Positions 1 to 62,996 of a stretch of 64,000 nt of DNA are shown here, piece by piece. The stretch is from Ulota crispa (Eukaryota > Streptophyta > Bryopsida > Orthotrichales > Orthotrichaceae). Below the pieces are notes generated by a model that was given only the letters and a program-made list of their open reading frames with translations, did no database searches and was not told where the DNA came from. Numbering within the stretch: the first letter of the stretch is position 1; every line of letters begins with the position of its first letter. The stretch lies in contig OY987249.1 of assembly GCA_963920765.1 (NCBI GenBank), positions 9,548,817-9,612,816 of the forward strand, in the 5' to 3' direction. Both the position numbers and the translations under genes were made by a program.

Positions 1-523
1 TTTGGATTGATATGAAATTTTAATCAAACTAACTAGACTAATATGCGCAAATTTTCCAAAAACAAATATTGAAAAAAAAGTTTCTATGAAGAAGTTATAA
101 GCCACCAAAGTTCATTGTAATGCAAAAGTGTGTGGATTTTGAACTTTGAGTTGCTCCCAAACATTCAAGAAAACTTAGATTGACGTGAAGATCTTAACAC
201 GATTACTAGACTTTAAGGGGAACAAAGCCCAACAAATTTTATTGAAAACAAACATTTGATGAAAAAGATACAAGCCTCCAAAGTTGCAGCCATCACAATG
301 CAATGTGGTGAACTCAAATTGACCATGTGAACTTTGAATGGCTTTCACAAAACCAATTTGTCTTAGATTGATTTTAAAATTCTATCATAGAAACTAAACT
401 AATACATGCAACTTTGTCAACAAATTTTACTAAATTTGAACAAAAAACACAAAAGTTAGAGCACTTCAAGTTGCAAAGATGGATTGCTAAAGGACAGAAT
501 TTGTCCCCTTAGGCAATGAGGGG
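1..523. repeat. ~180-bp tandem repeat array ending at a TTAA
   Basis: About 2.7 degenerate copies of a unit near 180 bp. The landmark 'TTAGATTGA' recurs near 3, 178 and 366, each time followed about 50 bases later by 'CAAATTTT' and then by 'AAGCCNCCAAAGTT' or a variant. The array ends in a tail (about 485-523) that resembles the right end of the 944-bp TTAA element at 8231-9174, including 'TTTGTCCCC', and stops exactly at TTAA (524-527). It may therefore be the body of a TTAA-type element that starts outside the window. The unit length is typical of plant satellites. No coding potential is seen. Confidence 0.5.
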
Positions 524-527
524 TTAA

Positions 528-889
528 ACGCCGACACATACAAATATTTGTCCTCTGGCCACTAAAAAACAAGTTGAGTTACAGATAAAAGTTGTTTTTT
601 AGCTAGTTTTTTTGTAGAAATGATCATAGACACATGGTGCATCATGTAAACACAAAAAACAATCTCAACAAATGCACTTGTATTTTTTAATATCCCAAAT
701 TGTGAGAAGATTTAGAGACATGGTGTTAAGTCTCATGCTACCCATCTTGCACTTTTCATGAGGGCACCATGCGCTGTTGACTTTTGCAATTGTAAAAAAC
801 AAAATTTTAATGGATGGGCACTTGCCACACCTCTGTAGGTAGAAACCATTGTAGAGGGCAGGCACGGCCACTCATCCGACGTTCAAGGG
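528..889 (+). mobile_element. TTAA-type non-autonomous element, family F, copy 1 (unoccupied)
   Basis: A 362-bp unit between TTAA at 524-527 and TTAA at 890-893. It aligns end to end with 7956-9266 once the inner insertion there is removed (363 bp). Shared blocks include 'GAGGGCACCATGC' and 'GTTGACTTTTGCAA'. The right end is CGTTCAAGGG, the inverted form of the family end CCCTTGAACG; the left end seems to have lost about 6 bases relative to copy 2. It has no open frame of note. It is the empty-site reference for the nested insertion in copy 2. Confidence 0.65.
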
Positions 890-3321: not shown

Positions 3322-4795
3322 CACTAAATAGTGCATTTAAGTTGTCCACACTCATTTCTTTGACATTTTATATTAAAGGTTTTACTTATTGATACTACAA
3401 TAACATTCATCAATGATTATTCCAATAAACAAATTTTAATAACACTAAGGACTCGTCAACAAACAATACTAAGGAAAAACAAACTAGCATTGTCTATGCC
3501 ATAAATCATGTGAAATCCTAATATTTAGAAGATTGCCCATTCCTCTAAGTGACGAGACAATGACTCATGACGTTGTCTTGATGGAAAGTATTCCATCATG
3601 TAGATATTCATAGCTTTATTAAATATGTTTGAATTTCAATAGGTAATATGTTTTGTTTTTGAATTAAATAAAACTATTAAAAGAAACGGATTTGATTTGG
3701 AAAGCGGGAGAGGATAAAAAGATAAGAATCTTGAGTGGAGGTTAAGTACAAGTTAGAAGATGAGCTAATGTGTACTACATACACTTTATTTTAGAAAAAG
3801 ATGAAAAGTAAAGGAAAGTTTCTTTTTAGCAAGTGTGAGTTGAGTGTGAGTGGTAGTTAACTGTCAATAGAGAAAGCTGAACCTTAAAGGGGGGATAACT
3901 CCTGGGTTTGTTGTTGTTGTCTATTGTATTTTTTGTTTATGAAATTTTGAGAGCTTGTTTTGGGTGAAAAGACATTTTTAAACTGTATTTGCAAGTTTTA
4001 TTTGGAGCTAGGATGTAAAAGATATGATTATTTGAATTTGAGAACAGCTAAGCCATATGAGGTAGAAAGGCTGAGACTTTGACAAGCCATAGCTGACATT
4101 TAGTCCATTATTTTGCAACAAGATTTGGAGGGTGTATTCTTCTTTGTCTTAGCTTTCTAGGAAGCTATTGGAGTGTTGAGATTTGAAGCTTTGGGGAGAA
4201 AGTTATGAAGGAGTAAAGGCGTGGAGGTTGGCTGTCTTTTATGAGAGGGAGGCTGTAACTTTGGAGAATCGTAACTTCTAATGAGGTTGATATTTTCTTT
4301 TGAAAATTTTATAGATGATAGCTTGTTGGGTTAGCTTTTCAGATTGTTATCACTCATTGTATTTGGAGGATTTTTGATAGAGTTGTATTGTTTGAAAGTT
4401 TGAGAGATTTTGGAGTTTTCATAGATTTTGGGAGTTTCATAGATTTGGGAGTTTGATAGATTATAGGTCTTGAGACTTTTGGAGGGATTAGGAGAATTGA
4501 AGAGAATCTCATTCTGCAGAGCAACTGCTCTGTAGAATTCCCTTTTTAGAGTCTGTAGAGGAAGAAGCTCTTTTTGGAGAGCAGCTGCTCTCCAAAATTT
4601 TACCTTTGAGTTGGTAGTAGGAGAGGCTCATTCTGCAGAGCAAGTGCTCTATAGAATTTTTGTAGAGTTTGCGTGAAGATTCACCAACCGCACACACAGT
4701 CGCAGCCAAACACCCCGAGTGTTCCCAAGGCGCGCGCCTCTCAACCCGACAACGTAATTTGTCAAGGTAAGGCAACCAAAATGCACTATTTAGTG
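3322..4795. mobile_element. TA-target MITE family T, long chimeric copy T1
   Basis: Bounded by inverted ends: CACTAAATAGTGCATTT at 3322 and its complement ending at 4795, next to TA. The ends match the shorter family members at 4798-5247, 15514-16077 and 56407-56709, but at about 1.47 kb the interior is longer and unrelated. The right subterminal part holds three evenly spaced palindromes (4511-4657). No transposase is seen. The left target dinucleotide is not TA, so the left end may be rearranged. Confidence 0.5.
4511..4657. repeat. Three regularly spaced GAGCAnCTGCTC palindromes
   Basis: Palindromes of 26-28 bp begin at 4511, 4572 and 4630, a spacing of about 60 bp. The middle one (4572-4597) is a perfect 26-bp palindrome centred on CAGCTG; the flanking two differ by a few bases. 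Each is set in related sequence (AGAAT.. or CCAAA..), so they arose by duplication of one hairpin unit. Confidence 0.7.
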
Positions 4796-4797
4796 TA

Positions 4798-5247
4798 TAC
4801 CAAATAGTGCATTTAGGTTGCCTTAATAATTAGGTTGCCTTACCGTGGAAAGTTACCTTATGACTCATGGCTTAATCACTTGGAGGCGCATGTAACTCTT
4901 TAGATACTAGGAATTCACACTGTGTACAACATGGACACCATGGCATTTGTTATTGTTTGCCAAATTATAATTGTCAATAGTGCATTCGCTAATAAATGAA
5001 AGGATAACGCAAGAGTGATGGAAATTTGTCAATTTGTCGCTAGTATGGCTCTAGTCCACCAAAAACAAAATGCGCTAATGGACATTGCTAATTTATTTTT
5101 CAACAAATGTGTTGTTATTGCCAAGGTCTTTAAATGTTGCTTATTACAGTAATTATTGTTGAAAATCACTGTAACAACTGTAAATATTTAAATAGAGTAA
5201 AATGTCAAAAAAAATAGTGTGAGCCAACCTAAATGCACTATTTGGTT
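4798..5247. mobile_element. TA-target MITE family T, copy T2
   Basis: A 450-bp element with inverted ends TACCAAATAGTGCATTTAGG and the complement at 5228-5247, flanked by TA on both sides (4796-4797 and 5248-5249). It abuts copy T1 head to head and shares one TA with it. A TA duplication is the mark of Tc1/mariner-class (Stowaway-like) MITEs. Confidence 0.7.
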
Positions 5248-5249
5248 TA

Positions 5250-5936
5250 GAACACTACGGAGTATTATTTAGCAAAAGAATGGGTCTGGGGGGGTGCGCA
5301 TTCCTAGACACTGAGATTGCCTTGGGGGCACCTCGAAATTTGAAGCGGATGTGGGTGGTGGAGTTTGACCACAGGAATTCGGGCATGTCTTGGATTGTGC
5401 AACACCCCAAGACCCAAGTCTCCCCATTCCACAATTTCTTCTGGATCATTGCCCCCTCTAATAATTTAATTTTGAATTTAATATTAATGTTAGTGGGTAT
5501 AGTAAGGCCACGGAGAAAGAAAAAAGCATCGAATTTTCCTTACCTCGGTAGGAGAGAAAGCAAAGTGATACAACATGGTGGTGATGGTAAAAAGTGTGTA
5601 CATCCATCTCTATTATTGGCAAAATAAAGGAATTTTGACAAGGCCCTTTTCCTTTGGCAAAACAGATGGAGCAGTTTCGAGTAAAATGGGGTTTTGCAAT
5701 ATTGGGAAGGTGCTAGAACGTTAGATTATATTTTTATTTGTTTTTATTGATTTTTGGCTTCAAAACAAAATAAACAATGTTGTGTTTATTATCAGGGCCT
5801 ACGTCTCTTTGCTTAACATGTATGTTTTAAATGAAAGTGAAGTATTTTATTAGATTTCGTCTATATTTATTTTCAGCCTATTTTATAATTAAAAGCTCTT
5901 TTTTGCATAGATTGTAGGATGTAACTGCTGCTTTAG
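5250..5936. other. Gap with an unrecognised open frame
   Basis: A plus-strand frame of 115 codons (5280-5627) is open, but I recognise no domain and its second half is basic and low complexity. A shorter minus-strand frame overlaps it. I see no splice sites or relatives, so I do not call it a gene. Confidence 0.35.
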
Positions 5937-5940
5937 TTAA

Positions 5941-6852
5941 CCCCTAAAGGCCCAAGGAACCCACTTTGGGCTTTATGAGAACTCGGGCAGGCTCTATTAA
6001 CTTCATAATTTGGAAAATTTTCATGAAATTTTTAGGATGGATGCTACTCATCATAATCTACATGTGAAGCTTTATTTCATGTCATTTGGATAAGTATTGC
6101 AAAAGTTAGAAGGCTTTTTCAATTTCAATGTCAAACCGGGCAACAAAAAATATTTTCTATTTTTTTATTAAATTTTTTTATATAATTGTATAGAATGATA
6201 CCTACTCAAAAAATATTGAATCACTCAATTCCAAATAATGAGGTAAGAGTTAAAAGGAGTTTTCTTTTGCAGGCAATGAAGGTAGGAAGAGGGTAGAAAA
6301 AACATATAAAGTTATCCTTTACTCTCAATTTTGAAAGATTACAAATGAAAATGAAAAAGAAAGTTACTAATTGTCTGTTAGAGCATTCTTACCATTGGGA
6401 TTAACAATTTTCAAATTCTTCCAAAACTTATTAGCATATTACTTATATCTTTCATTCATCACTACCTTTCACTTTACAATTTTTGTAAAAATGAATCCAA
6501 TTTTTTTTTGGTTAAACTTTTGTATATACGCTTTCAACCCATTTTCCAACATATTGCAAAAATTGCACAAGAAATACGACATATGTGCTTTTTTCTAAAA
6601 TTTTTGAAAAACAAAACTTCACCTTTTGGAAAGACTAGAAAGGCCTACATTTTGAAGTTTGGGCACATTGATCTTGCAGTTGGTGGGGATATTCATTCTG
6701 AAATTTTGGGGCAACATAGTTGTGCAAGTTAACCAAAAGATCCTGCGGCTGGATTTGTTAAAAAGTAAGTTTCAATGAAGACTTTGACCATGGTTTGAGG
6801 ACTAGCATTTTGAAGTAGTTTTGGGTCTCTAAACACAAAAGAATTTTAGGGG
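5941..6852 (+). mobile_element. TTAA-type element, family B, copy 1
   Basis: A 912-bp element between TTAA at 5937-5940 and TTAA at 6853-6856. It begins CCCCTAAAGG and ends TTTTAGGGG. An inverted copy of almost the same length (911 bp) lies at 23505-24415, with flanks that do not match. In a stretch of about 130 codons the two copies share a reading frame (start MSVRAF.PLGLTIFKFFQ); here that frame is shifted near 6508-6598, while in copy 2 it is open. No transposase domain is recognised in it. Confidence 0.75.
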
Positions 6853-6856
6853 TTAA

Positions 6857-7951
6857 CTTCACCCTTTATTCAAGCAAGTTTGAGAAAAAGTGTTTTTTGA
6901 AATTTGAGCATCGTTGTTTTGCAATTGGTGAGGTTTTCTTCCATGAAAATTTGAAAGATGTTACTTTGGAGAGGTGAATAAAGAGGTTCCAAAGTTGGAT
7001 CGATTCAAAACATATAAAGAAAAAAACAAGGCTCTATCATTGTTTTAGGAAAAAATGTGGGTTGCGGTACTTTTGGCATCAAGCGGCCAAATACTTCATA
7101 GTTCAATCCTAGAGATTTGAAGAGCTTACCTTGGAAGTTTTTGGCGGTTTTGAAAATGCACAAAGACAATATTGATTCTAAGCTTTTCTTAGGAAATTAG
7201 TAGAAATTCCTATTACCATGCTTTGGAATTGAAAGTCTTTTCTTTGCAATAAATAGAGAAAATATTGCAATATTCATAAGCAAATTGTGTTTCCTAATCG
7301 AAAGCAAATTGCAATTAATTCATTTTTGACTTAACTTTCTTAGTTTGGTTGCATACCTTGAAGTCTGCATAAGGCTATGAATCATCTTGTTTTCTTTTGA
7401 TAACAATGGAAAAACAACATGCATTCCTTTTTTATATCAACCCTCATTGATAACAAAAATAGCATAATATTTGCCTTGTTTATTATAAATTCTAAAGTTC
7501 ATAAATGAAAACCATGGCACAAGAATATTCACACTCTTATACGCTTAGGGTTTGACACATGCAATATTTGGATGATAATTGCTCAGGTAGTCAATGCCCT
7601 CAAAATGATCTCTTGACACTACTTGAGCATGTCAAAAAATGACCCTTCAAATCATTATTCATCCTAAGTTCACTGAGCTATATCCTATATTCCACTTGAC
7701 GGTTGGTCAATCAGCTATTTGTGGGGTACACTTGAAGAGTAGGGATGGAAGACAAAAAATTTGAGGGCTTTTTAAAAGTAGATGCAAACATTTGGAGAGT
7801 CAAATATCACATATAAGGCTGTGAATACTCTAAAGCAAGAAGAAAATAGAAAGTTTTACAAATTATTTTTGGACTACGCTACTTTGTGAGTGTAAAACAA
7901 TAAGCCATGAGCAATGCGCCATGATTCTATGAGCGGGAACCAATTTTGAGC
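6857..7951. other. Repeat-derived gap
   Basis: Sequence at about 6870-6970 resembles the interior of the adjacent family B element (around 6640-6720), as if B inserted next to or into an older relative. The remainder up to 7951 shows no gene. Confidence 0.35.
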
Positions 7952-7955
7952 TTGA

Positions 7956-9266
7956 CCCCTAAACGCTAAGGAAGATGTTTTTTGTCCTCCGGCTCCAAAA
8001 AAACATTGTGTATGCTAGGAAAAGGTTGTTTATCATTTGTTTTTTTTTTCCAGAAGTGATCATAAACACGTGGTTCATCATGGAAGGCAAAAAGGTACCT
8101 CATTAGATGCACTCATATTTTTAAGTGTTCCAAATTGTGAGATGATTCAGAGATATAGTGTTAGATCCCAAGCTGCCCTTGTTGCAATTTTCAAGAGGGC
8201 ACCATGCACTGTTGACTTTTGCAACTTTAACCCCTAAAGGACCAGGCCTTTTTTCTTCAAAATCATTAAAAACTGCCACTTTGGGGGAATGAGTAGAAAA
8301 TTAGGGAATTTTTTTTTGTTTTGAAAATTCAACCATAAGATCTTGCCCTAGACTATGGGAGGTACTTGTGGAAATAATTTCAGCTCATTCTAGAAGTAGA
8401 GGAGTGAGATATTGACATTTGAAGTGGAAAATAAGTTTTTTCCCCTGTTGCCCAATCATTTCAGAAGCCTTTGACGGCTCCTTTATCAAAAAAATTGCTC
8501 AACACAAAGTTGAGGTTTATTTTTTCCAAGTAGGAGACCAAGTTAGGTATGTGTGGGAGAATTTTCAAATGAATTGGAGGTGTGGATCATACTTTGTAAA
8601 AGATTGCAATGCCGTAAGGTCATGAGATTTGCATATACACTAGGCAAAATTGGAGGATGTATGTAAAATTCAAAAATGTGGATTACTTTGATCCAAATGG
8701 TAAAAACCAAGGAATCTTAGTCTACTAAAATTTGAAAAAAAAAGTCAACAAAAAATACACAAAGAGCTCAAAAAAGGAAAGCAACAAATTTTACTAGAGG
8801 CAAAAAAGAATGGAGGTTTGGGAGTCCCATACCTACCCGCAAACTAAAACTTCTCATAGGCTTTCATCTCATCAATCAAAATTGAATGATTTAAAGATTT
8901 CTACATTTTTATTAATCTAAAGAACCAATTTCAGATTTTTTTTTTAAATATGCAATTTTGATTTTTTTTGCGCTGCCCACCCTTGCCCTTTTTCAAAAAT
9001 TCTTGCATAACTTCTTCAATAAATGTCCAAATGAAAAAAAAATTAGGTGCCCACGTAGATTTTTGAATTCCCCACCTTCAATAAAAGTTTCAAAAAATCA
9101 CAAAAAGTAAATTAGATGTAGGTACATGCCCAAAATCCATTTGTCCCCCGAGGGAACAGTTGGTCCTTTAGGGGTTAAGAAATAATATTACAACTGCTAG
9201 GTACTTCCATAATAGTGTAAACATTGTAGCAGGGCTAGTCATGGTGACCAACCCGATGTTTAAGAG
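7956..9266 (+). mobile_element. TTAA-type element, family F, copy 2, interrupted
   Basis: Starts CCCCTAAACGC after TTGA (7952-7955) and ends before TTAA (9267-9270). With the inner element (8231-9174) and one TTAA removed it is 363 bp, matching the uninterrupted copy at 528-889. Confidence 0.7.
8231..9174 (+). mobile_element. TTAA-type element, family C, copy 1, nested in family F
   Basis: A 944-bp element starting CCCCTAAAGGACCA and ending TGGTCCTTTAGGGG, a perfect 14-bp terminal inverted repeat, with TTAA on both sides (8227-8230, 9175-9178). The unoccupied site is seen in the family F copy at 528-889. A second family C copy is at 59646-60572. The interior is AT-rich and has no long open frame, so it is non-autonomous. 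The target and the CCCC start fit piggyBac-type elements; Kolobok and Sola3 are alternatives. Confidence 0.85.
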
Positions 9267-9270
9267 TTAA

Positions 9271-10403
9271 ATATATGGAAAAACTAGAAAAACACTAAGT
9301 TTTTTAGAGATAAAAGTTTAAAACACACAATTTTAGGGCCCTATATATGGTTATAGGTGAAATTTAGTATTTCAACAAAAAAAACTAGGCTCAAGGTTCA
9401 TGGATCTCCGCTCTTAGTATAGCATTCCCCAATCCATGTTTATCTCTGGGTCATAGAGAGCCAACTTTCTCATCCATGATCATTTCCAATAGTGTAAAGT
9501 GAATTTATATCGGGCCCTTGGAGGTTTTATCATTTATTCTACTCTCTTCTTCATTTTGTCTTTCTTATTATTTTTCATTCCCTCTCTCTTTTCTATACAT
9601 CTTTTGGTAGATCAAAAATTTTGGATGCCAAGAAATGGAGGAAGAAACTTGTAACCAAAATGACTACATTATTTACTATTAAAGCTATAACCAATAATAT
9701 ATAAAGTGAAGAATACAAAAAATTGTCCATGCCATTGTTTTTGTGTATTCCTACAATGGAATCCGTTGCAAGAAATATAATGTTAAACAAAAAATTCATT
9801 TATTACAATAAGTATTCCAATGAGTCTTAATTACAACAATAAAATTGAAATTATTGCAATCAACTCATTTATTGCAATAAAAAAACATTATATCCATAGA
9901 AATTGTGTTAACTGCAATAAAATAATAGAAAAACAACAAGCTCGATAGTAAATAGCATTAAAAAATTAGTAAAAATAGGCCAATTAAATTTTGGGATGGT
10001 TTAGTCACCCTAAAAACTGGCCAAAGAACCTTTTGAGGTTGTTTCAATTAAAAATTTGGGTGTCCATGAAACCTTATCCATTTTATAGCATGTAGGATTA
10101 CACGTCATTTTATCATTTGTTTTGAGCCTTGGTCACTCTTCAATATTGAGGCTACTGTAAAGCAAACTTGGACCATCTCCTTCTCCTCCAATCACACAAT
10201 GCTCTAAGTGCTTTGGGTTAGAGCCATTATTCCTATACTAATAATGGTATTTAGTGTTGGCAACACTAATTACAAATTACAACACTCAATTTCAACAAAA
10301 GCACTAGTGATGTTATCAACACTAAATGTCAATATAATCACTATTTTTCAACTAAATTACCACCAAAAAATGTAAATTAGTACCATAACAATTTAACCCA
10401 TAC
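9271..10403. other. AT-rich gap without genes
   Basis: Only low-complexity AT-rich sequence and short fragments. The stretch about 10205-10403, with repeated 'CAACACTAA' runs, resembles 11370-11480 on the far side of the palindrome, suggesting that one older repeat was split by it. Confidence 0.35.
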
Positions 10404-10406
10404 TAA

Positions 10407-10926
10407 GAGCATTGCTAATGCAACCGTAACCATGCCCGGTATAACAAACCCGTTTGTTTTAAATAATAAAATTAATTGTGATATAAATTTATATGATTTG
10501 AATGGCATGACTTTTCTTGTTGTAAAAACACAATAATATTTAGGTTTGGGGTTTAGGGTGATCTAGATATATGGCATCAAATGTTAGCTAGCTTCCAAAA
10601 AATTTAGAGGCCTCACCAGATCAAGCCTTTAGAGGGAAAAATCAGCCAAGGGCACGGTATAAACGGTCACTTATACCTTGCCCTTGGCTGATTTTTCCCT
10701 CTAAAGGCTTGATTTGGTGATGCCTCTAATTTTTTTGGAAGCTAGCTAACATTTGATGCCATATATCTAGATCACCCTAAACCCCAAACCTAAATATTAT
10801 TGTGTTTTTACAACAAGAAAAGTCATGCCATTCAAATCATATAAATTTATATCACAATTAATTATTAATTGAAAAAAAAACGGGGTTGTTATATCGGGCC
10901 TAATTACAATTGCATTGGCAACGCTC
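10407..10926. mobile_element. 520-bp near-perfect palindrome, Harbinger/Tourist-like MITE
   Basis: The two halves are inverted copies around a centre near 10666 with a loop of about 8 bases (ACGGTCAC). Only scattered mismatches and small indels separate the arms, which run out to the ends GAGCATTGCTAATGCAA (left) and GAGCGTTGCCAATGCAA (right, complement). TAA flanks both sides (10404-10406 and 10927-10929), the 3-bp target typical of PIF/Harbinger. If transcribed it would fold into one long hairpin of about 255 bp, the form that feeds small-RNA production in plants. Confidence 0.8.
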
Positions 10927-10929
10927 TAA

Positions 10930-11494
10930 GGGCATCTCCAATCCAGCCAGAAAATAGGCTCTGGAAAACCTGTCAGCTCGTGTCTGATGCCGGCTCTCTT
11001 ACAGAGCAGGGCCATTTTCCAATCCACCACCTCCCAATGCACATACTTTATGACACTCACTAAACATAGTATTTTAATTGTTCATACTTTTTTAAGTGCG
11101 TATGAGAGGAGATTAGTGTCAGAAATTTCTGAAATTGCCTGAGATTGCGTTAGAGTCAAAGTTGGAGTAATGTGCATGACTCTCCAAATAGTGAAAATAT
11201 GCAGGGGAGGGGCTCTTATGTGGGGAGCCCTGAAAAATACAATATGGTTTAACTGTTGCAATGGAGCCCATGTTTTTGCTCAAGTCCGGCTTAAAGCATT
11301 GCACAAGCTTTTGCTTGCCTCTCTTACGGCTGCATTGGGGATTCCTTAAGATTGTATCTAGTATGAACACTAATTGTCAACACAAACAATAATTTTCAAC
11401 CAAACGAAAACTAGAGTGAGTCAAATGATGAGGTAAACAGCAATATTAGTACCACAACACTAAATATCACTATTAATACAGTGTAAAGAGGCCC
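10930..11494. mobile_element. Possible second TAA-target element
   Basis: Begins GGGCATCTCCAATCC right after the TAA that ends the palindrome and may end at GCCC (11491-11494) before another TAA (11495-11497). The start is the common 'GGGCATCTCCAA' end of plant Harbinger/hAT MITEs. The right end match is short, so the boundary is weak. Confidence 0.3.
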
Positions 11495-12353: not shown

Positions 12354-12357
12354 TTAA

Positions 12358-14030
12358 CCCCTGAAGGATTATTGTCCCTACAGGGGACAAATGGGATTTC
12401 AGGCAAATATCTTTTGCCTCAATTTTTGTCCTCATTTTTTGAATTTTTTTGAAGATAGAAAAACACATTAGCTTTTGGGGAATATAATTTTTATTCCAAT
12501 TTATGTTTAGGAGCAAAAGTCATGCCTAGATAAGTAGAAATTTGGGGAGATGGGGCAGCAATTTTTTTACAAAAATGATTTTTATTTTAAAAAATTCTCA
12601 TAGTTTATAGTTTTTTTTGCATTTGAAGCTTTGATTCATTCCATTTGGACTAGTTATGAAAAAGTCATAGACAATCTTGTTCTTTGGGCAATTCAAGCAT
12701 CTTCTTGAAAAAATAACTTATAAACTTCATTTTTGAATGCAAATTTAACATTTAAAAAAAAAAAAACTGTTGGAAAGGGTGAAGTTTACTTTCTAGAACA
12801 ATCTCACCATTGGGATTATTGTGTTTCAATTCCTTTGGAGGGTTATTCACAATTTAAGTTTTTGTTCAATCTCATACCTTCTTCTACCTAATGTTTTTTC
12901 AAAGAACAAAATTACATATTTTTTTAATTTGTTTTTTTTCCAAAGATTTTCAACTCAATTTTTCACCATAAGGAAATAAACCTCAAAACTCTGTGGTGCA
13001 AAAATTTGAAGTCAAAAAGTTTGAAATCAAATAATCTAATCATGTAAGGTGCAAAAATTTGAAGTCAAAAAGTTTGAAATCAAATAATCTAATCATGTAA
13101 GGTGCAAAAAAGTTTGTTTTTTACACTTTAAACCCAAATATATTGCAATTTGTGCTATCAACACTTTTGAGTTTTTTTTTTTTTTTTGCACATTCATATA
13201 CTAGTCTAGTACAAGATCTTACAGTTAGATATGCAACAAGACCAATTTTCAAACTTTTTTACTCTTTGCAATAGAAATGGTAGTTTTGAGTGTCATTTGA
13301 CAAAATAAAGGCCCCAAAGTTCAACAAAAATATGATCTATAAAGATGAGTTCAATGTGAGTTGTCATACAAGTTATCTATGAAGATTTCATGCTCAAATG
13401 TACAAAATCAGTTATAGTTAATAATCAAATAACCCAATTTTGTTAAAATATAGAAACTTTTATTTAAAACTTACATTGAACACTTCATAGATCATATTTT
13501 TTACACTTTGTGCAGTGTTTTTTAATATGAAAGATGAAGATACTGATGTTTCCTACACATGTATGCAATCTCATTAAAACATTCATCACCAAGATTTTTC
13601 AGCCATCTTCCATATTAAACCATTAATGTAAAAAAAAATCGAAATGAAATTTGATTTCTTTTGAACTAAAATTTGGTATATTTGACTGAATTTGCATAGG
13701 AAATAAATGTTAATTACGTAAGAAAAAAATGCCGATTGGAAAAATCTTAATATCGTGACCTGACAAGCAATTTGTAAGATTATAAGCCTTGATTGTACAA
13801 AATTAAACTATGTTTTCTCATTTGTCATGCGCTTCTACAATGTACATTTTCTAGTATAGATTTTGTTTTGCTTTTGAAATTACAAATGTGGTAGTAGAAT
13901 TGTGAAAACTTAGTAAGATAAAAAAACATTCGTTCAACATTCAATTTGCCAAATAATAAACATTGAGATCATGGGTGCAAACTTTTGTTATTAGAAGAGG
14001 GTAACAAGTCTGCAACTCTTTGCCTTCAGT
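12358..14030 (-). mobile_element. Decayed TTAA-type element D with J-family body
   Basis: Starts CCCCTGAAGG after TTAA (12354-12357). The next bases, with 'GGGGACAAATGG', match the right end of family C read backwards. About 13310-13870 belongs to a repeat (family J) also found at 42600-43650 and 63150-64000, with the landmark 'GATGTTTCCTA'. The right boundary is not clear; 14030 is a guess from a decayed AAGGGTAA. A local direct duplication lies at 13003-13105. Confidence 0.4.
13003..13105. repeat. Short tandem duplication
   Basis: The phrase GGTGCAAAAATTTGAAG and the 40 bases after it occur twice in a row (about 52-bp unit), nearly unchanged, followed by the start of a third copy. Confidence 0.75.
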
Positions 14031-14558: not shown

Positions 14559-14966
14559 GGGAATTGATATATTTATCACACCCTTTTTACTATTCTATCA
14601 CACATATTAGATATGGCCTATGTTTTTGATATTATAGTAGGTGTGGATCAAGGATTGAACATCACTAAATTGAAAATACAACTTGATATAGAAATTGTAA
14701 CTTCAACTATGTTTTTCAACTCTATATTCCGCTCATAATATTCATTAAAAGATTTAAACTAAACCTAGCATACGTTAGATCTTTTGAATGATATTATGAG
14801 CTGGATCTAGAATTGAAAAACGTTGAAGTTACTTCTATGTCAGGTGCATGCTCAATTTAGTGATGTATTGTTTGTGGTGCACACTTACTATAATATCATA
14901 AATATAGGTCATATATAATACGTGTGGCGGGATAATAAAAAGGGTGTGGTACATATATCAATTCCT
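14559..14966. mobile_element. Mutator-type MITE family M, copy M1
   Basis: A 408-bp element with inverted ends GGGAATTGATATAT and AGGAATTGATATATG (complement), flanked by a perfect 9-bp direct repeat CACATAATA (14550-14558 and 14967-14975). A 9-bp target duplication marks Mutator-like elements. Other copies are at 26707 and 45062. Confidence 0.8.
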
Positions 14967-15513
14967 CACATAATATTGCAAATGAAGTATCCTGTTCAAC
15001 CTTGCTTTGAAAACCATTTGAACTAGGGCCCGATAGTCGCCCGTTTGGAGGGCAATACTGGAGATGTTCTAACAACCCAACTACACTAAGATTTTGCCTT
15101 GAGGTGGGACTTGCAGACTAGCCAAAGAAAAAACTATTGTCCCATTGCTATCGGTCCCAAAGATCCAAACATGATTTCCAAATATAAGTTTCTTAGCTCA
15201 AGTTTCTAGAAACACTCCCAACTGTGCCAAGTTTTCAAATCTAATACCGATGTTCTCATTTTTTCCCCCCTGTAGCAGGACAGTTTTTAGGCAGAAGTTT
15301 TGAAAAAAATAGCCATTCCACCAACTATTTCGTTACAAGCTTGCCAGAATTAATTCATAATAAGCCGAGTGGTGTTGAATACCAAATTTTTCCATTATTT
15401 AAGATCAATTCAAAGTAGTTTAAGTCTTTTCCCAGCCCCCAATTTTAATCTACCAATGCATTGGGACACTGGGGCAAGGCCACATTACCTGGATCTCAAA
15501 AAATATTTGCAAT

Positions 15514-16077
15514 TGGTTCCCTTTGCAATTAGGTTATCTTAGCAATTAGTTTGCTTTACCCTGAAAAGTTATCTCATGCTTGATTGCTTGACCACTTGGA
15601 GGCACATGCAGCTCTCTAAATATTAGGATTTTACATGGTTTAAAGCTTATACAACATTTGTTTATTATTCCTTAGCATTGTTGTTGTCAAGTTTTTGTTG
15701 TGAAAATTTGTTTATTGCAATAATTTTTTATGAAAATTATTGTAATATCAGTAAACATTTAAACACTATATTAGATAAATTGGGAGAAACAATTCATTTT
15801 GGGGCTTTCACTATTTCTGCTATTATGTATATATTAGCATATTACAAAAAAATGAGCGAGCATTTTCTTGTACAATAGTGAAGTCTCAGTGATTGCCTCC
15901 AAGAACTTCAATAATCACAACTTTTGAGCAATAGCTATGCCTACATTTATTTATATGGGATTAAGGTGGAGTACAAAATGGTCCCTCCGTTTTTCCCAAT
16001 TTACCTATTATGGTGTTTTTATGTAGTGTAAAATGTTGAGAAATTAGTATAGGGCAACCTAAATGCACTATTTAATG
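15514..16077. mobile_element. TA-target MITE family T, copy T4 (diverged)
   Basis: About 564 bp. The left end is degenerate but is followed by the family blocks 'AGTTATCTCATG' and 'CACTTGGAGGCACATG'. The right end is 'GGCAACCTAAATGCAC..' next to TA (16078-16079). The open 66-codon frame at 15678 is inside it and is not a gene. Confidence 0.6.
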
Positions 16078-16079
16078 TA

Positions 16080-16760
16080 GTTTGTCTCTTTTTCAATATT
16101 TGATTTTTTGGGATCAGATGCAAAGAAGAATTTATTGCCATTAGAGCCAGAGGGTTTCAAAGCCTAGTAGATTCTTCAACTAAAGTTGCTTTTGTGATTA
16201 AAAAAATCTTGATTTCTCTTGGTTGTTTCAAGGTTGATTGCTTTTTTATCTTTTCTGATTCTCTCATGAGAAAATTAAATTTTGCTTGATTTTTTTTCTT
16301 TTGTTATTTCCTACAATTATCTCCTAGCTTTGAAACCTCCTGTTACTTCAAGTTTTTTCAGCTGATAACAATCCTCCACTTTAGCTTGCAACGGTTTAAA
16401 GTTTTCACCTGCACTCAATTCCAAGCACATATTTTTGTGAAAGAAAAAATTATAATAAAAACCCCACTTGAACCTACACCAACCAAGTAGCCAACTATCA
16501 AATTGGTGCCAACTCCCTTTGCAAAGAATTTGTGTTAAAACTCCACCCAATGTGTTCCTTCATTCTAGACCAGGAAACCAAGTTGTGTCTATAGCAAGGG
16601 CTTCAATAGAGTCCATTACAAGATTGTTGCATGGACTAAATGGGGTTTCCAAATAGCTTCAATGGAACACATGCTTAACCTTAAACCAAAATAAATTGCT
16701 TGGGGCTTAACAAGGTGTGGTAAAAGATTTGCAAATGAGTCACCGAGGGGAGAACAAGTC
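16080..16760. other. Gap without recognised genes
   Basis: Two short opposing frames (16317-16656) overlap each other; neither has a recognisable domain. No repeat boundary is visible. Confidence 0.35.
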
Positions 16761-20144: not shown

Positions 20145-20861
20145 TCACAGCAACTGGACGGCGGCGATCATGGGGATCTTTTCTCGCAGCTTTTGCGTGA
20201 CGGCCACCCGGACGGTCATGACGGACGCCGCGGGACCGGCAAGCCTAACCTTCACCACCGGTCCGTCGATCTTCACGAGCTCGAGCTCGCCACCGCCAGT
20301 GCCAATCAAATACGGTCGAATCTCCGACAACACAGCCTCGACGTTCTCATCAATAAGTGCGAGCCCGGTCTCCTCGTCCATGATCTGCTCCACGGCGGCG
20401 ATCTCCGGTATCCTCTCAATCAAACGCCGCTCGATGCCCATGCGCATCGTCATCGTCGAGCTCGGGCAGGAGCCACATGCGCCTTGCAGCTTCAGCTTCA
20501 CCACCAGGCCGTCGATTTCGTATAAAGCCACATTACCCCCATCGGAGATCAAATACGGTCGTACCTCGTCCAGCACGGTTTCCACGTTCTCTTCTGTTAA
20601 TTCCAAGCCTTCCGTTAAGACATCCTCTGTCGCAACCGCTTCGGGTTTAAACCTAAACGTCCGAGATGCAATACTACTACTATTACGTCGCACTCCAAAC
20701 GCCGCCGCGACGCTTGTCTTTTGAATTCCCAGCCTATTCAATCTTAACTTCACAGATTGCTTCCATCCACCGAGCATGGCATCTTGGTATGAGCAACACG
20801 GCGCCCCATGCACCATCCCTGCCGCTCCTAAAACCGCTTGCGTCATCACCGCTGATGCCAT
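20145..20861 (-). CDS. NFU: Plastid NFU-type iron-sulfur cluster scaffold protein
   Basis: NFU proteins assemble Fe-S clusters and hand them to target proteins; in plants the two-domain forms act in plastids, for example for photosystem I and ferredoxin-type acceptors. The 238-residue product has an N-terminal stretch of about 75 residues, rich in Ala, Ser and Arg and poor in acids, that fits a transit peptide. The first NifU domain (about 83-155) carries the cluster-binding [13 protein letters not shown], with Cys-X2-Cys. The second NifU domain (about 165-238) has GPAASVMT in that place and so lacks both cysteines, as known for plant plastid NFU1-3. Length fits the family. The start is the first ATG in the spliced leader: the upstream frame is open but has no ATG, and the context is AAAATGG. 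The whole coding region is one exon. Confidence 0.93.
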
Positions 20862-21560
20862 TTTCGCAAACCCCTGTCCAAGAAAAACAACATCAGAAAC
20901 GAATTTTAACACACATGTCACCATAGCATATCAATTGCCATGATTTCGGACTTGAACAAAACAAAGCCCAACTTGCTGAATTTCAAAGCGAAAAGAAACG
21001 GGTTCTCCTAGAGGTTCTCTACCACGAGTCGGCAGAATTAGGGTTTGAAAAATGACGTATTGAAAGTGCCATTGAACTACATGCTTAAGAAACCACTAGA
21101 TAAATAAAGTCTTCGTAAAAAATGGATCTCTTCTAAGAAGTTCACGTCTAATTGCATGAACTGAGTCCAAGAGAAAACGCAGACCTCGTGAGAAAAACTG
21201 AGGAACCCAAAACTCAGAAACCCTAAGAAAGGCGAATGAGAGAGACAGCGATGGTTTCGAAGCGTATTACCTTCAGAGAAGTGGTGATTACGGCGATGCT
21301 TTTCGTCGGTTCGGCCTGCGAGGAGATTGACGAAGAGTTTGCTTCAAACGGCGTGCTTGCTGTGCAGATGTGCGGAGAGAGTTTCGGTGTTTGTGGGGAG
21401 GAATTGTGGGTTGGCGATAGGGGTGAGAGTGGAGTGTTTGTTTTGAGGAGAGTGAGGAGTGAGGAGGGAATTGGGGGTTTGTGTGGTTGCAGTGAGCGCG
21501 TGGTGTCGAAGCGACGATGAGATATTTGATAGGGGTGAGGGGTGAAGCCGGCGCTGGCCA
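20862..21560 (-). other. NFU 5' leader with one intron
   Basis: Read on the minus strand, a leader exon ends CTCTGAAG at 21271, followed by GTAATA. The intron (21270-20874, 397 bp) ends in a T-rich tract and GGACAG, and the coding exon resumes GGGTTTGCGAAAATGG. The leader exon (to about 21540) is Ser/Pro/Thr-rich in all frames and contains no ATG on this strand for about 360 bases, as expected of a translated mRNA's leader. The transcription start is not fixed. Confidence 0.6.
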
Positions 21561-23500: not shown

Positions 23501-23504
23501 TTAA

Positions 23505-24415
23505 CCCCTAAAATTCTTTTGTGTTTAGAGGCCCAAAACTGCTTCAAAATACTAGTCCCCAAACCATGGTCAAAATCTTCATTGAAACTTACTTTTTAAC
23601 AAATCCAAATGTAGGATCCTTTGGTTGACTTGCACAAGTACATTGTCCCAAAATTTCAGAATGAAAATCCCCACCAATTGCAAGATCAATGTGCCTAAAC
23701 TTCAAAATGTAGGCTTTCCTAGTCCTTCCAAGAGGTGAAGTTTTGTTTTTCAAACTTTTTAGAGAAAAACACAAATGTTGTATTTCTTGTGCAATTTTGG
23801 CAATATGTTGGAAAATGGGTTGAAAGCATACATAAAAAAATTTAACCAAAAAAAATTTTGGATTCATTTTTACAAAAACTGGAAAGTGAAAGGTATTGAA
23901 GAATGAAAAATATAAGTAATATGCTAATAAGTTTTGGAAGAATTTGAAAATTGTTAATCCCAATGGTGAGAATGCTCTAACAGACAATTAGTAACTTTAT
24001 TTTTCATTTTCATTTGAAAATTTTAAAAATTGAGAGTAAAAGATAACTTTATATGTTTTTTTACCCTCTTTTTACCTTCATTGCCCGCAAAATAAAACTC
24101 CTTTTAACTCTTACCTCATTATTTGGAATTGAGTGATTCAATTTTTTTTGAGTAGGTATCAATCTATACAATTCTATTAAAAAATTCAAAAAAAATTAGT
24201 ATATATTTTTTGCTGCCCGGTTTGACATTGAAATTGAAAAAACCTTCTAACTTTTGCATTACTTATCAGAATGAAATGAAATAAAGCTTCACATGTAGAT
24301 TATGATGAGTAGCATCCATCCTAAAATTTTCATGAAAATTTTCCAAATTATGAAGTCAATAGAGCCTGCCCGAGTTCTCATAAAGCCCAAAGTGGGCTCC
24401 TTTGTCCTTTAGGGA
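23505..24415 (-). mobile_element. TTAA-type element, family B, copy 2
   Basis: A 911-bp inverted copy of 5941-6852, between TTAA at 23501-23504 and TTAA at 24416-24419. On the minus strand it holds a 132-codon open frame (23987-23589) that is shifted in copy 1. The frame has no recognised domain; its conservation may only reflect young age. Ends: CCCTAAAGGACAAAGG (minus strand, start, one base changed) and TTTTAGGGG. Confidence 0.75.
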
Positions 24416-24419
24416 TTAA

Positions 24420-25026: not shown

Positions 25027-25184
25027 CACAAGTAGAAAACTCCGTCCAAAACAACAGAAAACCAACAGTTTCTTGTTGTTTTGGGCACTTGCCCACGCTA
25101 ATTGACTAATTTAACAGAATTCTATAAAAAACTAAATACGTTTTGTTGATTTGAACACCATTATCTAAATCAACAAAAAAATTT

Positions 25185-25750
25185 GGAATCTTTGAGAATC
25201 TTTTGGGAATCTTTATGAATCTTTATGAATCTTTTAGGGATCATTGATAATCTTTTCAGGATTTTTAAGAACATATAAGAATCTTTTCATGATTTTAGAA
25301 TCTTTGAGAACATTTGAGAATCTTTGAGAATCTTTTTGGAATTTTTGAGAATCTTTTAGGAATCTTTGAGAATCTTTGGAAATCTTTGGGAATAATTTCA
25401 AATTTTTTTGGAATCTTTGAGAATGTTTGAGAATGTTTGAGAATCTTTGGAAATCTATGAGAATCTTCTTGGAATCATTGAGAATCTTTAGGAATCTTTG
25501 AGAATTCTTGAGAATCTTTGAGAATAGTTTGGAATATTTGAGAATCTTTTGAAATGTTTTAGGAATTTTGAATTTTTTTGAGAATTTTTGAAAATCTTTA
25601 AGAATCTTCTTGGAATCTTCTTGGAAGCTTTGAGAAGCTTTGAGAATCTTTAAGAATCTTTGGGGATCTTTTTGGAAATTTTAAAATCTTTGAGAATCTT
25701 TGAAAAATTTCAAGTACCTTTTTGGAATCTTTGAGAATCTTTTTAAAATC
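25185..25750. repeat. GAATCTTTGA minisatellite inside the CACTA element
   Basis: Several dozen tandem, imperfect units of about 10-13 bp based on GAATCTTTGA, fading out towards 25995. Tandem subterminal motifs are usual in CACTA elements, where transposase binds. Confidence 0.85.
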
Positions 25751-26706
25751 TTTATGAAATTTGTTAAAATACTTCAAAATGTTTATAGAAATAGAATCTC
25801 TTAGACTGAATTAGAATCCTTTAGGAACCTTTTTGTAATTCATCAAAATAATGTAAAATATTTTTAATAAAAAAACTATTACAATAGTTTTGGTTTGTTT
25901 TTGAAATCTTTCTAGAATCTTTTTGGACCTCATTAAAATGTTTTGAAGTTTTAAAAAATAAAAGAAGTTTAAAAAAAAAATAGAATCTTTTAGAAGTTTG
26001 AGTGTACATTGACTTGTTTTATTTCTTTACTTTTCACAATTTGGTTAGATTTAAAATTAGCAGCCTTTAAAGTTAAGTAATAACATGACTATAATAACAA
26101 AAAAATCAACAGTTTTTTTATTGATTTAGACACTTTTGGACACAACTTCACTAATTCAACAAAATTTTATATAAAAAGTACAACATTTTGTTGTTTTAAA
26201 TACCAAAATTTCTTTACAAACAAATATAAAAGATGCTCCTCAATTCTTTGAAAAAATCATATATGTCTCTCAAAGACTAAAAGTACCAAAAATATCTTTC
26301 CATTTTGTATAAAAATCAACAATGCTTCTAATAGATTGGGAAAATATTAAAAATGCTCCTCATCTATTTTAAATTATTAACATCTTTGTGTTATATGATA
26401 GCCAAGTGTATAGTTTAATGCAAATTCTTACAAGAAACCAAAGGTGATTTTTATACTTCAAATAACACAAGGATATATTTATCATTTCAAAATAGAAGAG
26501 TTTTTTTATGATTTTTCCAAAATAATAGGAGTATAATTGATATTCCTACAAAAATAAGGAATACTTTTTATGTTTCAAATATTTTCGGCATAAACTTGAT
26601 ATTTTGAAAGACATAAAGGGTATTTTTAGTATTTTTCCTTCTATTACTAACCAAATGAATTAAAAAAAAACAATCTTATAAAACATTTTTATAAGCTTTA
26701 AAAGAT

Positions 26707-27118
26707 GGGAATTGATATGTGTACCACACCCTTCCAATTACTATACCACACCACGGGGTAAATTTTAGATTTCTACCATCAAAAAGCTGAATTTGAAAAT
26801 TTTAAATTCAAATTTGAACTTAGAGACCATGGTATTGTCTAGAACCATAAAAAAAGTTGTATTTCAACAACACCCAATGAAAAAGTTTAGTTAAGGAGAA
26901 AATTGTTAATTTTACTTTTGTTTGTAAAAAAAGGTAAGCTTTTTCATTGGGTGTTGTTGAATTGCAATTCTTTTTATGGTCCTAGACAATATCATGGTCT
27001 TTAAGTTCATATTTGAATTCAAAATTCTCAAACTCAAACTTTTGATGGTAGAAATCTAAAATTTACCTCAGGGGTGTGGTACAATAGTTCGAAGGGTGTG
27101 GTTTACATATTAATGCCC
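26707..27118. mobile_element. Mutator-type MITE family M, copy M2
   Basis: 412 bp; the arms are inverted copies over most of the length (e.g. TTCATTGGGTGTTGTTG with its complement). Flanked by TTAAAAGAT and TTAAAAAAT (26698-26706, 27119-27127), a 9-bp duplication with one mismatch. Interior matches copy M3 at 45062. Confidence 0.8.
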
Positions 27119-27629
27119 TTAAAAAATATCCAAAACCATTCAAAAGTCTATAGAATTATGATTTTATAATTGCAAGGTTTTAATTTCGTAACTTTTCACG
27201 ATTTCATGTTATTTAAAGCTATCAAACTATAGAGGCTATTTTAACAGAATAAGGTTTTTTTACAAAAAAACTAGTACTAAATAATAATTATTAATGAATC
27301 CAATCTTTGCCTGTAGTATTCTTTTTGAGATTTGTGAATTCCAATAAAAATTTATAAACAAAATTAAAAGGATGGAAATAAACAATTTTTTAAAAATTTC
27401 TAAACACCTTCTTTGATTTTAGTTCATAACTTTTGATAAAAAGATTGAAATCCAAAAAAATTGTTGAAGGTGAAAAAAAATACATTTACCAACTTTTCTT
27501 AGTTCTAAGTTTTTTGAAAAAATATCCTTTAATGGGCAAAAATAGCCTCCAAAATCTACTGGCTTACGATTAATATGAATATTTAATGTACAAATACAAT
27601 CATGATTCATTTGTGCACATGTGTGAGTG

Positions 27630-42772: not shown

Positions 42773-42776
42773 TTAA

Positions 42777-43318
42777 CCCTAAACGTTCAAGGGGATAAGG
42801 GCATAACATAGATGCCTTACAAAATGATATATATGTAAATTTAATGAAAGTTGCTTCAAAAGAGAAAACAAAAATAATAATGTTTATTATCCATGTAGTC
42901 AAACATTCAAAAAAAAATTTAGACTCTTATTTTATTTAGAAGCATTTACCACTTAATATTCATCAAAATTACAAATTTGATTCATAGAATTTAAAATTTG
43001 GTATGATTGCTTAAAAACAAACATTCTATTCAAAACTTCAAAAATGCAATCTTTTTGAAGGAAGGAACATCATTAGTTTCCCAAAATAATAAATTTTGCA
43101 ACACTAGCGAATATTGAAGTGCTTGTCTTTGAAAAATTCTCCTTCATGTAGTTTAACTTGGATTGACATGATACAAGTTGGGTTGGAAAGTAGACTTGCT
43201 TTCCTATATTACAAAAACGACAAAATATTCAAAAAGTATTTTTTTTTTTTTTTTTTTGTTTCCAGCAGACCAAAGAAAAGGGCAATGACCAAAAAATGGT
43301 TGATTAGACATTTAGGGG
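42777..43318. mobile_element. TTAA-type element E, nested in J-family repeat
   Basis: 542 bp between TTAA at 42773-42776 and TTAA at 43319-43322. Ends CCCTAAACGTTC and CCCCTAAATGTC (complement). The flanks together rebuild the J repeat; its unoccupied version is at 63935-64000, where the site reads TACTTAATG. Confidence 0.75.
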
Positions 43319-43322
43319 TTAA

Positions 43323-44869: not shown

Positions 44870-45061
44870 TATACTACAACCCTTTTTATACTCAAAGCTT
44901 TTTTAAAGTTTTTTATAATTTTTGCGCTATGGATTAACATTTTGCTGCCTAAAGCTTTTCTTAGACAACTCTCCCTTTACAACAATCTACCATGCACAAA
45001 TCTAAAAAGGTTACGGGTGTATGCAAGTGCGACTAAAAGAAAAAAAAGACATAGAATGATA

Positions 45062-45491
45062 GGGCATTGATATGTGTACCACACCTTTTGAACTACTATA
45101 CCACACTCCTGGGATAAATTTTAGATTTCTACCATCAAAAAGCTGAATTTGAGAATTTGAGGATTTGAGAATTTGGAATTCAAATTTGGACTTAGAGACT
45201 GTCATTTAGTACAGAACCACAAAAAAACATTGTAATTGAACTACATCCAATAACAAAGTACAGCTAGGGGGGAAATATTACTTTTACTTTTGTTTATAAA
45301 AAAAAATAAAAAAAATAATTCATTGGGTGTTGTTCAATTAAAATCTTTTTATGATTATAAACGAAACCAGGGTTTCGAAGTCCAAATCTGAATTCCAAAT
45401 TCTCAAATTCAGATTTTGATGGTAGAAATATGAAATTCACCATGAGGTGTGGTACAGTAATTCAAAGGGTGTGGTACACATATCAATTCTG
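45062..45491. mobile_element. Mutator-type MITE family M, copy M3
   Basis: 430 bp, arms inverted, ends GGGCATTGATATGTG and CAGAATTGATATGTG (complement). Flanks AGAATGATA and TGAACGATA match at 7 of 9 bases in the place where copies M1 and M2 have their 9-bp repeats. Confidence 0.75.
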
Positions 45492-55195: not shown

Positions 55196-55587
55196 GATTC
55201 GTCTCTATAGAATCTATTTAAGAGCTGTGAAAGCATCGCAGTGTTTCGGTTAAAATCAGAACAATTGATGTCGGAATAGGTGCTGCTGTAAATCGATCTA
55301 ATTTTAGTTTTCATGCAAGATCGTGTGAGATCCAGCTTCGCCAACAATTGCAACATGCACCGAAAAGCAGGATCTCGTAAACAGGTGATACTCATTCCGT
55401 GACAACGGGATTTAGACTGCGGGAAGCTCCTGACGAAGGTTCCTCCTCGTGTCAACTGTTGCTGCTGCAATGACGACGCCGGCTTCGAAGGTAACCTAAC
55501 CTTCTAGTAAGAGGACAGGCGAGAACGTTCTAGAACCTTCTTAACCCTTGAAGGACAGGCCTACAGCCATGGATTTCCTATGGAATT

Positions 55588-56389
55588 AGTGGGTGTCAAA
55601 CCTGGCTATTTCTCACCTGACAAGTTTGGTTGGTCCACCTCACAACTTAATCACTTTTTGAAATTATAAGGCATGATAACTTCATCACCCACCTTTAGAG
55701 GTGGTTGAAAACTTAAATTAGTTATGGGTTTTTTTTATAAAAGTTATCAAGTGATCTTGTAGCTCTCTTCTAGAGGGAGACTGTGATACTAAAGAGGGAA
55801 ACTATGATACTAAATAGGGAGACAATGATACTAAAGAGGGAGACTATGATACTAAAGAGGGAGGGTGTGACATTCAAAAGGGAGAGTGTGATATTAAAGA
55901 GGGAGGGTGTGATACTAAAGAGGGAGAGTGTGACATTAAAGAGGGAAAGTGTGATACTAAAGAGGGAGGGTGTGATATTAAAGAGGGAGGGTGCAACATT
56001 AAAGATGTTAGTGTTATTACTAATCATACTACTAAAATCTAAATCATCTCTGTAATATCACATCCTAACCTCTTTAATATCACACCCTCCCTCTTTGATA
56101 TCACGCCCTCCACACCCTCCATGTGTAATAGCACACCCTCCCTCTTTAATATCACACCCTCCCTCTTTAATATCACACCCTCCCTCTTTAGTATCACACA
56201 TCAATCTTTGTGACATTATCTCATACATAAGTTACAAAAACTTACTCAAACTTTTATCAAGTAGTTTGTGAAGCTTTGAAAGGGTGATAACTTTGGAGAA
56301 TTTGGTTTAGCCACCACCCCTTAACTTTACAAAAAAATCCGGAGAGAGTTATCTCAAAACCTTCAAATTTGCCAAGTTTGACACCCACT
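55588..56389. mobile_element. Foldback element P with minisatellite arms, nested in K
   Basis: 802 bp with inverted ends AGTGGGTGTCAAAC and AGTGGGTGTCAAAC (complement), flanked by ATT (55585-55587, 56390-56392). The empty site GGAATTGCAACC is at about 56856-56867. The arms carry inverted minisatellites: units GAGGGAGGGTGTGATACTAAA on the left and the complement on the right. The 3-bp target suggests a Harbinger-like origin, not proven. Confidence 0.75.
55771..56206. repeat. Inverted minisatellites, about 20-bp units
   Basis: About eleven units of AGAGGGAG.GTGTGATACTA at 55771-56010, then about seven complementary units at 56053-56206. They can fold on each other. The open frames on both strands here are produced by the repeat. 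Confidence 0.85.
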
Positions 56390-56406
56390 ATTGCAATCAT
56401 CTTCTA

Positions 56407-56709
56407 TACCAAGTAAAGCATTCAGGTTGCCTCAACAATTAGGTTGCCTTACCTTGGAAAGTTACCTCATGACTCATCACTTGCCCACTTGGAAGTGCAT
56501 GCAACTCTTTACATATCTAGATTTCACTTGACTTTACAGCTTGGATATTGCTAGTTTGTCTTTCTACAGCTTTGTAGTACTTGTCAAGTCTTTAAAAAAT
56601 GATTTATTACAATAATTATTGCTGAAAATTACTGTAGTGGCAATAAGTATTTAAATAGTGCGGAATGTTGAGAAATTAGTGTGGGGCAACCTAAATGCAC
56701 TATTTGGTG
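56407..56709. mobile_element. TA-target MITE family T, copy T3, nested in K
   Basis: 303 bp, ends TACCAAGTAAAGCATTCAGG and CACCAAATAGTGCATTTAGG (complement), flanked by TA (56405-56406, 56710-56711). The empty site, with a single TA (CTCGTAGGAG), is at about 56873-56882. Confidence 0.85.
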
Positions 56710-56955
56710 TAGGAGTTATTTTGGCAATGTAATCAACATCAAAATTCAATATTATAATTTTAGTAGAAGAAGGTACATGCATACTACATGTATAAAAATT
56801 CTTAACCCTTGAATGACAAGCCTACAGCCATGGATTTCCTATGGAATTGCAACCATCTCGTAGGAGTTATTTTGGTAATGTAACTCACATCAAAATTTAA
56901 GATTATAATTTTAGAAGAAGAAAGCATATGCATACTACATGTATAAAAAAGTTCA

Positions 56956-57551: not shown

Positions 57552-57640
57552 CCCCTAAAGGACCACGGGGACAATTTTCATCCTTGCTCATACACGGGGA
57601 TTGTGTATCCACGGTGACCCCAGCGCTTAAGGGGTTAGGG
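57552..57640. mobile_element. Very short TTAA-bounded unit
   Basis: Begins CCCCTAAAGGACCACGG after TTAA (57548-57551) and ends GGGGTTAGGG before TTAA (57641-57644). Only about 89 bp; possibly a deletion derivative of family C. A further TTAA-CCCCTAAATGACCC start follows at 57672 whose other end I cannot find. Confidence 0.4.
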
Positions 57641-62379: not shown

Positions 62380-62996
62380 CCCCCAAAGGGTGTTGCTTAC
62401 CAAAAGTGTTGTTTGTATTTGTACGAGGAATCATTTAGTACTTGAAAAAATGATTTTGAGATAAATGTCAAAAATTTCTCAAAAATCTTAGTTGATTAAC
62501 AGTATGCCTATGATTTGGTTTGAAATTTACAACTCCAATGGAATTCATGTGCTACCCAAATGTCCCATCTGTATATAGTCTATACACAAAACATCAACAT
62601 CCTTTACGGGCCACACAACCAATGGTGCACAATACATCCCCTTTTTTGTGTGTTTTGGGGAGGTGAGGGCTTGAGGGTGGTTTGCATTAGTACTCAATGA
62701 AAGGTTGTTTTGGAACCCAATTGGAGGACCCAATCCTTGCTTGTAGTTGGTTAATTTTCTAAAACCAACATTGACCCTTAAACAACCAAAAGGCCCTTTT
62801 GACCAGTACAATATGGGGTATTTTTCTTGTAGGAATGGATCCACACCTCTACTACATTTGAGACCAACAAAGAAGTTGGAGACTAGATCAATGCAATTCT
62901 AGTGAGCTACTTGAGATCCCATATTAAATTTTTTTATTGGTAACAAATAACAGTTATATGTCAGCGTATATACTATGCCCTATGGTCGTTCAAGGG
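62380..62996. mobile_element. Probable TTAA-type element, family F-like ends
   Basis: 617 bp between TTAA (62376-62379) and TTAA (62997-63000); left end CCCCCAAAGGG, right end CGTTCAAGGG as in family F. Ends match each other only partly. Confidence 0.45.

Follow-up and report, generated by a model that had tools for sequence, protein, structure and literature searches.

Non-autonomous, piggyBac-like elements in TTAA targets of a plant-type genome

Which transposons lie in TTAA targets at this locus, and to which superfamily do they belong? The window, that is, the whole stretch of 64,000 bases analysed here (~35.5% G+C), was described in an earlier note as part of a plant-type genome that contains several families of piggyBac-like elements. 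The plant-type host is consistent with the ORF at 20148-20930 (minus strand), which contains two NifU stretches and has chloroplast NifU-like protein 2 as its best PDB match (E 5.6e-72). Searched against Pfam at E 0.01, the 128 stop-free ORFs of the window yielded no DNA transposase; this search is blind to transposase relics that are shorter, broken by stops or split by introns. The seven Pfam families found among these ORFs at that threshold comprise only NifU and retrotransposon or nuclease domains, and Rfam gave no matches for the window.

Seven elements (B1, B2, F1, F2, E1, E2 and C) were found at TTAA, the exceptions being two mutated flanks and one lost tip, and their coordinates and lengths agree with those first proposed. 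They are listed here together with part of a further element, X.

5941-6852, plus strand: B1, non-autonomous element of 912 bp, with TTAA at 5937-5940 and 6853-6856
23505-24415, minus strand: B2, inverted copy of B, 911 bp, with TTAA at 23501-23504 and 24416-24419
8231-9174, plus strand: F1, non-autonomous element of 944 bp nested in E2, with TTAA at 8227-8230 and 9175-9178 and a perfect 14-bp terminal inverted repeat (TIR)
59646-60572, plus strand: F2, second copy of F, 927 bp, left TTAA, right flank TTAT
7956-9266, plus strand: E2, interrupted by F1, 363 bp without it, left flank TTGA, right TTAA at 9267-9270
528-889, plus strand: E1, without an insertion at the place of F1, 362 bp, right TTAA at 890-893, left tip lost
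42777-43318, plus strand: C, 542 bp, with TTAA at 42773-42776 and 43319-43322 and two paralogous empty sites
1-523, minus strand: X, right part of a further element whose left end is outside the window; its TTAA at 524-527 adjoins E1

B1, B2, F1 and C are each flanked left and right by an exact TTAA. The two B copies, which are inverted relative to each other, are identical at 840 of 910 aligned bases and the F copies at 755 of 923, with the similarity ending at TTAA in both families. The boundary of similarity between the E copies also falls at TTAA, and here 245 of 355 aligned bases are identical once F1 has been removed from E2. The copies have thus diverged to different degrees, which suggests that the B, F and E families arose in more than a single burst. 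X has the end TTAACCCCTCATTGCC, with 13/18 matches to the 18-mer TTAACCCCTAAAGGACCA, and appears to have inserted into the left tip of E1.

Further evidence on the target comes from paralogous empty sites. The host repeat of C recurs at 63441-64000, where it is inverted on itself, and both arms contain a single TTAA where C and its second TTAA stand.

63441-63767, minus strand: empty paralogue of the C host repeat, single TTAA
63780-64000, plus strand: second empty paralogue of the C host repeat, single TTAA

At the place where F1 is inserted in E2, E1 has no insertion and GTAA in place of TTAA. Read from sequence, these paralogous sites support a 4-bp TTAA duplication twice, for C and for F1 in E2. 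Such comparisons reveal the look of an unoccupied site rather than excision, as the sites may never have been occupied, and no excision allele was seen in the window. The proposed TTAA target is thus borne out by the copy boundaries and by empty paralogues that carry TTAA (C) or a one-base variant of it (the F1 site). A 3-bp TWA target, as in PIF/Harbinger (Tourist-like) elements, was rejected, as the empty-site comparison gives the 4-bp TTAA. The two signs named beforehand as speaking against piggyBac, copies lacking TTAA flanks and a Harbinger TWA target, were not seen within the window.

We conclude that the elements are probably piggyBac-type DNA transposons of the non-autonomous kind, and that a piggyBac-family transposase with its gene outside the window would move them in trans. 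No transposase was found, so this assignment rests on the tips and the target: the TTAA duplication seen at the empty sites, the CCC tips and the perfect 14-bp inverted repeat of F1. With these, the combination of TTAA and CCC that had been taken as the piggyBac signature is the best fit here. Published piggyBac MITEs combine TTAA with 12-19-bp tips that begin with CC[C/T]T, among them a coral family with CCCCTCAGTGTCCG (PMC2872659). According to an animal survey, the first three TIR bases are often CCC and CCCTT is the most conserved motif (PMC10813416). CCC is not universal, as many bee piggyBacs are reported to begin with CAC, and the TIR of the T. ni piggyBac is given as 14 bp (PMC10140906), the same length as that of F1. 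The tips present in the main elements begin with CCC, TCC or CTC. The tip CCCCTAAAGGACCA is found in F, in the miniature element at 57552 (see below) and, with one change, at one B end, the other B end being CCCCTAAAATTC. E has the tips CCCCTAAACG and CCCTTGAACG, and the element at 62775 (also below) has CCCTTAAAC and CCCTTGAACG.

The target of Sola3 is also TTAA, and window ORFs that lack any transposase match would suit Sola3-type elements, or an undescribed superfamily that duplicates TTAA, as well. We regard such an origin as unlikely, as the tips here fit published piggyBac tips (PMC2872659, PMC10813416); Sola3 tips are presented in a figure of PMC5199201. Non-autonomous elements of the Kolobok type are a still more remote prospect. 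Kolobok also duplicates TTAA (PMC9587614, PMC6004289), but its termini are given as 5'-RR...YY-3' (PMC9587614), whereas the tips here are CCC, TCC or CTC. The ten Kolobok-related Xenopus copies with both ends found have AG tips (PMC6004289), and in the account of PMC9587614 the only plants named as containing Kolobok are chlorophytes and rhodophytes. The AT-richness of the genome, with TTAACCC or the CCCTAAA of plant telomere-like repeats turning up by chance, can scarcely account for the elements: although TTAACCC is not rare (21 in the window on both strands), the 18-mer TTAACCCCTAAAGGACCA with at least 15 matches occurs at 11 places on both strands of the window and at none in 10 windows simulated with a first-order Markov model, and for the seven main elements the copy boundaries at TTAA and the empty sites speak against chance.

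For the piggyBac reading, we examined the linkage between the tips and TTAA with the 14-mer CCCCTAAAGGACCA. With at least 12 matches, this 14-mer is found at 8 places, 7 behind TTAA and 1 behind ATAA (TTAA background 0.7%), so that 8/8 stand behind TTAA or a form of it that differs at one base (background 9%). The share behind TTAA is 10/14 at 11 or more matches and 16/56 at 10 or more. As this consensus was picked from the ends themselves, the test is mildly circular, TTAA itself being outside the consensus. In a generic scan of the window for inverted 14-mers of any sequence (at least 11 matches), TTAA did not stand out (10 pairs, compared with 16 for ATAT, 6 for TATA, 4 for AATT and 0-2 for eight other tetramers), and CCC-type tips occurred in only one of its ten TTAA pairs, that of F1. 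Between the two ends of one element, the tips match at 14/14 bases in F1 and at 12/14 in F2 and in the element at 62775, and at just 7-9/14 (5-8 of the first 8) in B1, B2, C, E2 and the element at 57552. Subterminal palindromes like those of the T. ni piggyBac were compared with shuffles, and 1 of 24 ends reached 0.05 or less (B2 left, 0.015). The palindrome at the 12354 end has a suggestive look and, at 0.06 of shuffles, was left out of the evidence. PiggyBat is likewise described as having no easily recognised subterminal pattern (PMC11707139).

The decamer GGGGACAAAT has three exact occurrences in the window (499-508, which is within X, 9139-9148 and 12383-12392), each inside a CCCCT end at TTAA and beginning 16, 27 and 26 bases in, respectively. 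It is possibly a subterminal binding motif.

Next, we focused on how the families are related. The earlier note held that they share only their ends. This may hold for E and C, whose profiles had no match to B, F or 12358 above the decoys, and fails for B, F and 12358, which are homologous (B and F over ~340 bp). As decoys we used the window in reversed order and five windows simulated with a third-order Markov model; the highest score that one of the four profiles reached in them was 8.9 bits. In the search with the F profile, the right 345 bp of F scored 45.8 bits against the left part of B1, 40.0 bits against that of B2 (reverse complement) and 46.0 bits against 12355-12650. In the search with the B profile, the left ~340 bp of B (339) scored 36.7 bits against F1 and only 4.0 bits against F2, and B 280-621 scored 19.6 bits against 12631-12973, in a register that agrees with the 12354 end. 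Arm identity among B, F and 12358 is 49-61%, compared with a median of 45% and a maximum of 54% in 40 random pairs aligned pairwise. The identities of B1, B2 and F1 to 12358 (50, 49 and 52%) are inside this random range, and their relation to it rests on the profile scores. We read B, F and 12358 as a single family that has diverged and perhaps recombined. The element at 12358 is as follows.

12358-13297, plus strand: G, related to B and F and diverged from them, with TTAA at 12354-12357; the far tip is decayed and the end was placed by eye

Judged by eye, the far end of this element looks like the left end of F, but the F profile reports no match there. Two low-scoring matches were also observed. 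The C profile matched 63438-63711 at 10.8 bits, slightly over the best decoy. The right flank of B1, at 6856-7009, weakly resembles the B interior (profile 681-828, 10.0 bits, E 0.0015; best decoy 8.9), and B1 possibly landed beside an older relative there.

Four weaker ends had also been proposed. That at 12358 belongs with B and F and is the end of a larger element that extends to ~13297. The end at 57552 probably pairs with one at 57634. No partner was found for the end at 62380; the right end at 62996 pairs with 62775.

57552-57634, plus strand: probable miniature element of 83 bp, left TTAA, right flank TTAG, 9/14 tip bases matching
62775-62996, plus strand: probable element of 222 bp, left flank TTGA, right TTAA, 13/16 tip bases matching

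The fourth end, at 55545, has a second copy of ~46 bp at 56806, and no far end was found for it. The ~46 shared bases begin TTAACCCTTGAA and have the same orientation at 55541-55587 and 56802-56848, the latter copy standing between two 90-bp direct repeats (56709-56798 and 56860-56949). Chance may explain isolated ends, for example those at 62380 and 928. The nine element intervals, with E2 counted with F1 inside, sum to 6,210 bases or 9.7% of the window. Without the less certain 12358, 57552 and 62775, the lengths of the remaining intervals sum to 4,965 bases (7.8%).

Other repeats are present in the window. A fold-back element at 10403-10930 has 260-bp arms that are 92% complementary and 8 bases apart, with tips GAGCATTGCTAATGC / GAGCGTTGCCAATGC and TAA at both sides; it resembles a Tourist-type (Harbinger) MITE. 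Three related inverted-repeat elements of ~400-430 bp (14559-14965, 26707-27119 and 45061-45489), with tips near GAATTGATATGTGTACCACACCC, form a further MITE-like family. A dispersed repeat with CCAAATAGTGCATTTAGGTTGCC-like ends lies at 4770-5250, 15512-16080 and 56405-56712; its copies differ in length, and the inversion is clearest in the first. Tandem repeats comprise a long array of degenerate, GAATCTTTGA-like 10-base units (25177-25800) and 21-base repeats in both orientations, face to face (55751-56204).

In the mechanism that we propose, a piggyBac-family transposase from another part of the genome would bind the tips, cut the element out and join it into another TTAA, which would thereby be duplicated. 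We see B, F and 12358 as descendants of a single ancestor whose interior diverged or recombined and whose tips were kept. E and C would each be a lineage of their own, perhaps served by that transposase or by a relative of it. The earlier proposal that one transposase moves all families is not shown by these data, as the tips vary and as what B, F and 12358 have in common is their descent and not just their ends.

These elements add well-supported new members to a known kind, and what sets them apart is above all their host and their local density. To our knowledge, common plant repeat pipelines do not seek TTAA elements, and such families may thus go unnamed. It is conceivable, although we put this forward tentatively, that a land-plant lineage has its own long-lived piggyBac system, with several non-autonomous families that make up ~8-10% of the region and act as a substantial genome builder. 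If so, piggyBac, a group best known from animals, would be a builder of plant genomes and not an animal or fungal element seen in plants just as stray annotations. The defined tips and empty sites allow the autonomous partner to be retrieved from the host genome. With that partner, one could ask whether plant piggyBac is old and inherited or horizontally transferred, and a plant-adapted piggyBac transposase could have practical use.

The statement that piggyBac is rarely reported from land plants was fair, with the qualification that it is already listed there. PiggyBac is among the superfamilies present in all taxonomic groups studied in Table 2 of PMC4438587, of which we read land plants as one, and passing mentions describe it as known from plants (PMC10813416, PMC10140906). 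Among the matches listed in our literature search, which covered titles and the first lines of abstracts and mostly not subscription journals, no land-plant TTAA/CCC families with empty sites were found. The 12 papers found by the tip letters included no transposon paper, by title, and a moss paper (PMC10619864) proved to be irrelevant, as it had matched through the word 'piggybacking'. The 17-mer tip had no matches in viral_contigs. The 18-mer tip had one match in genome_contigs, in a Denitrovibrio MAG, which we take to be chance; the 7,461 bases examined there contain no second site with at least 14/18 matches.

Among known systems, the T2-MITE/Kolobok elements share TTAA and non-autonomous copies with the elements found here, but their tips are AG/AGGRR and not CCC (PMC6004289). 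In the fern Ceratopteris richardii, a land plant, a repeat table lists PiggyBac with 1,230 copies and 122,417 bp (PMC6890710), which is a repeat-annotation label. The T. ni piggyBac and its relatives have the TTAA target and a short TIR in common with our elements (PMC10140906, PMC11707139); unlike these, the T. ni element is autonomous, with 2,472 bp and 19-bp subterminal repeats, whereas we found no transposase and no significant subterminal palindromes. The coral CMITEs of Acropora and their piggyBac-like partners (PMC2872659) are animal elements of ~100 bp with a conserved interior, whereas the elements here measure 83-944 bp in a plant-type host, with no partner transposase found in the window. 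Like them, the CMITEs comprise several TTAA-duplicating families with 14-bp tips that begin with CCC, and past movement is evident from an empty allele.
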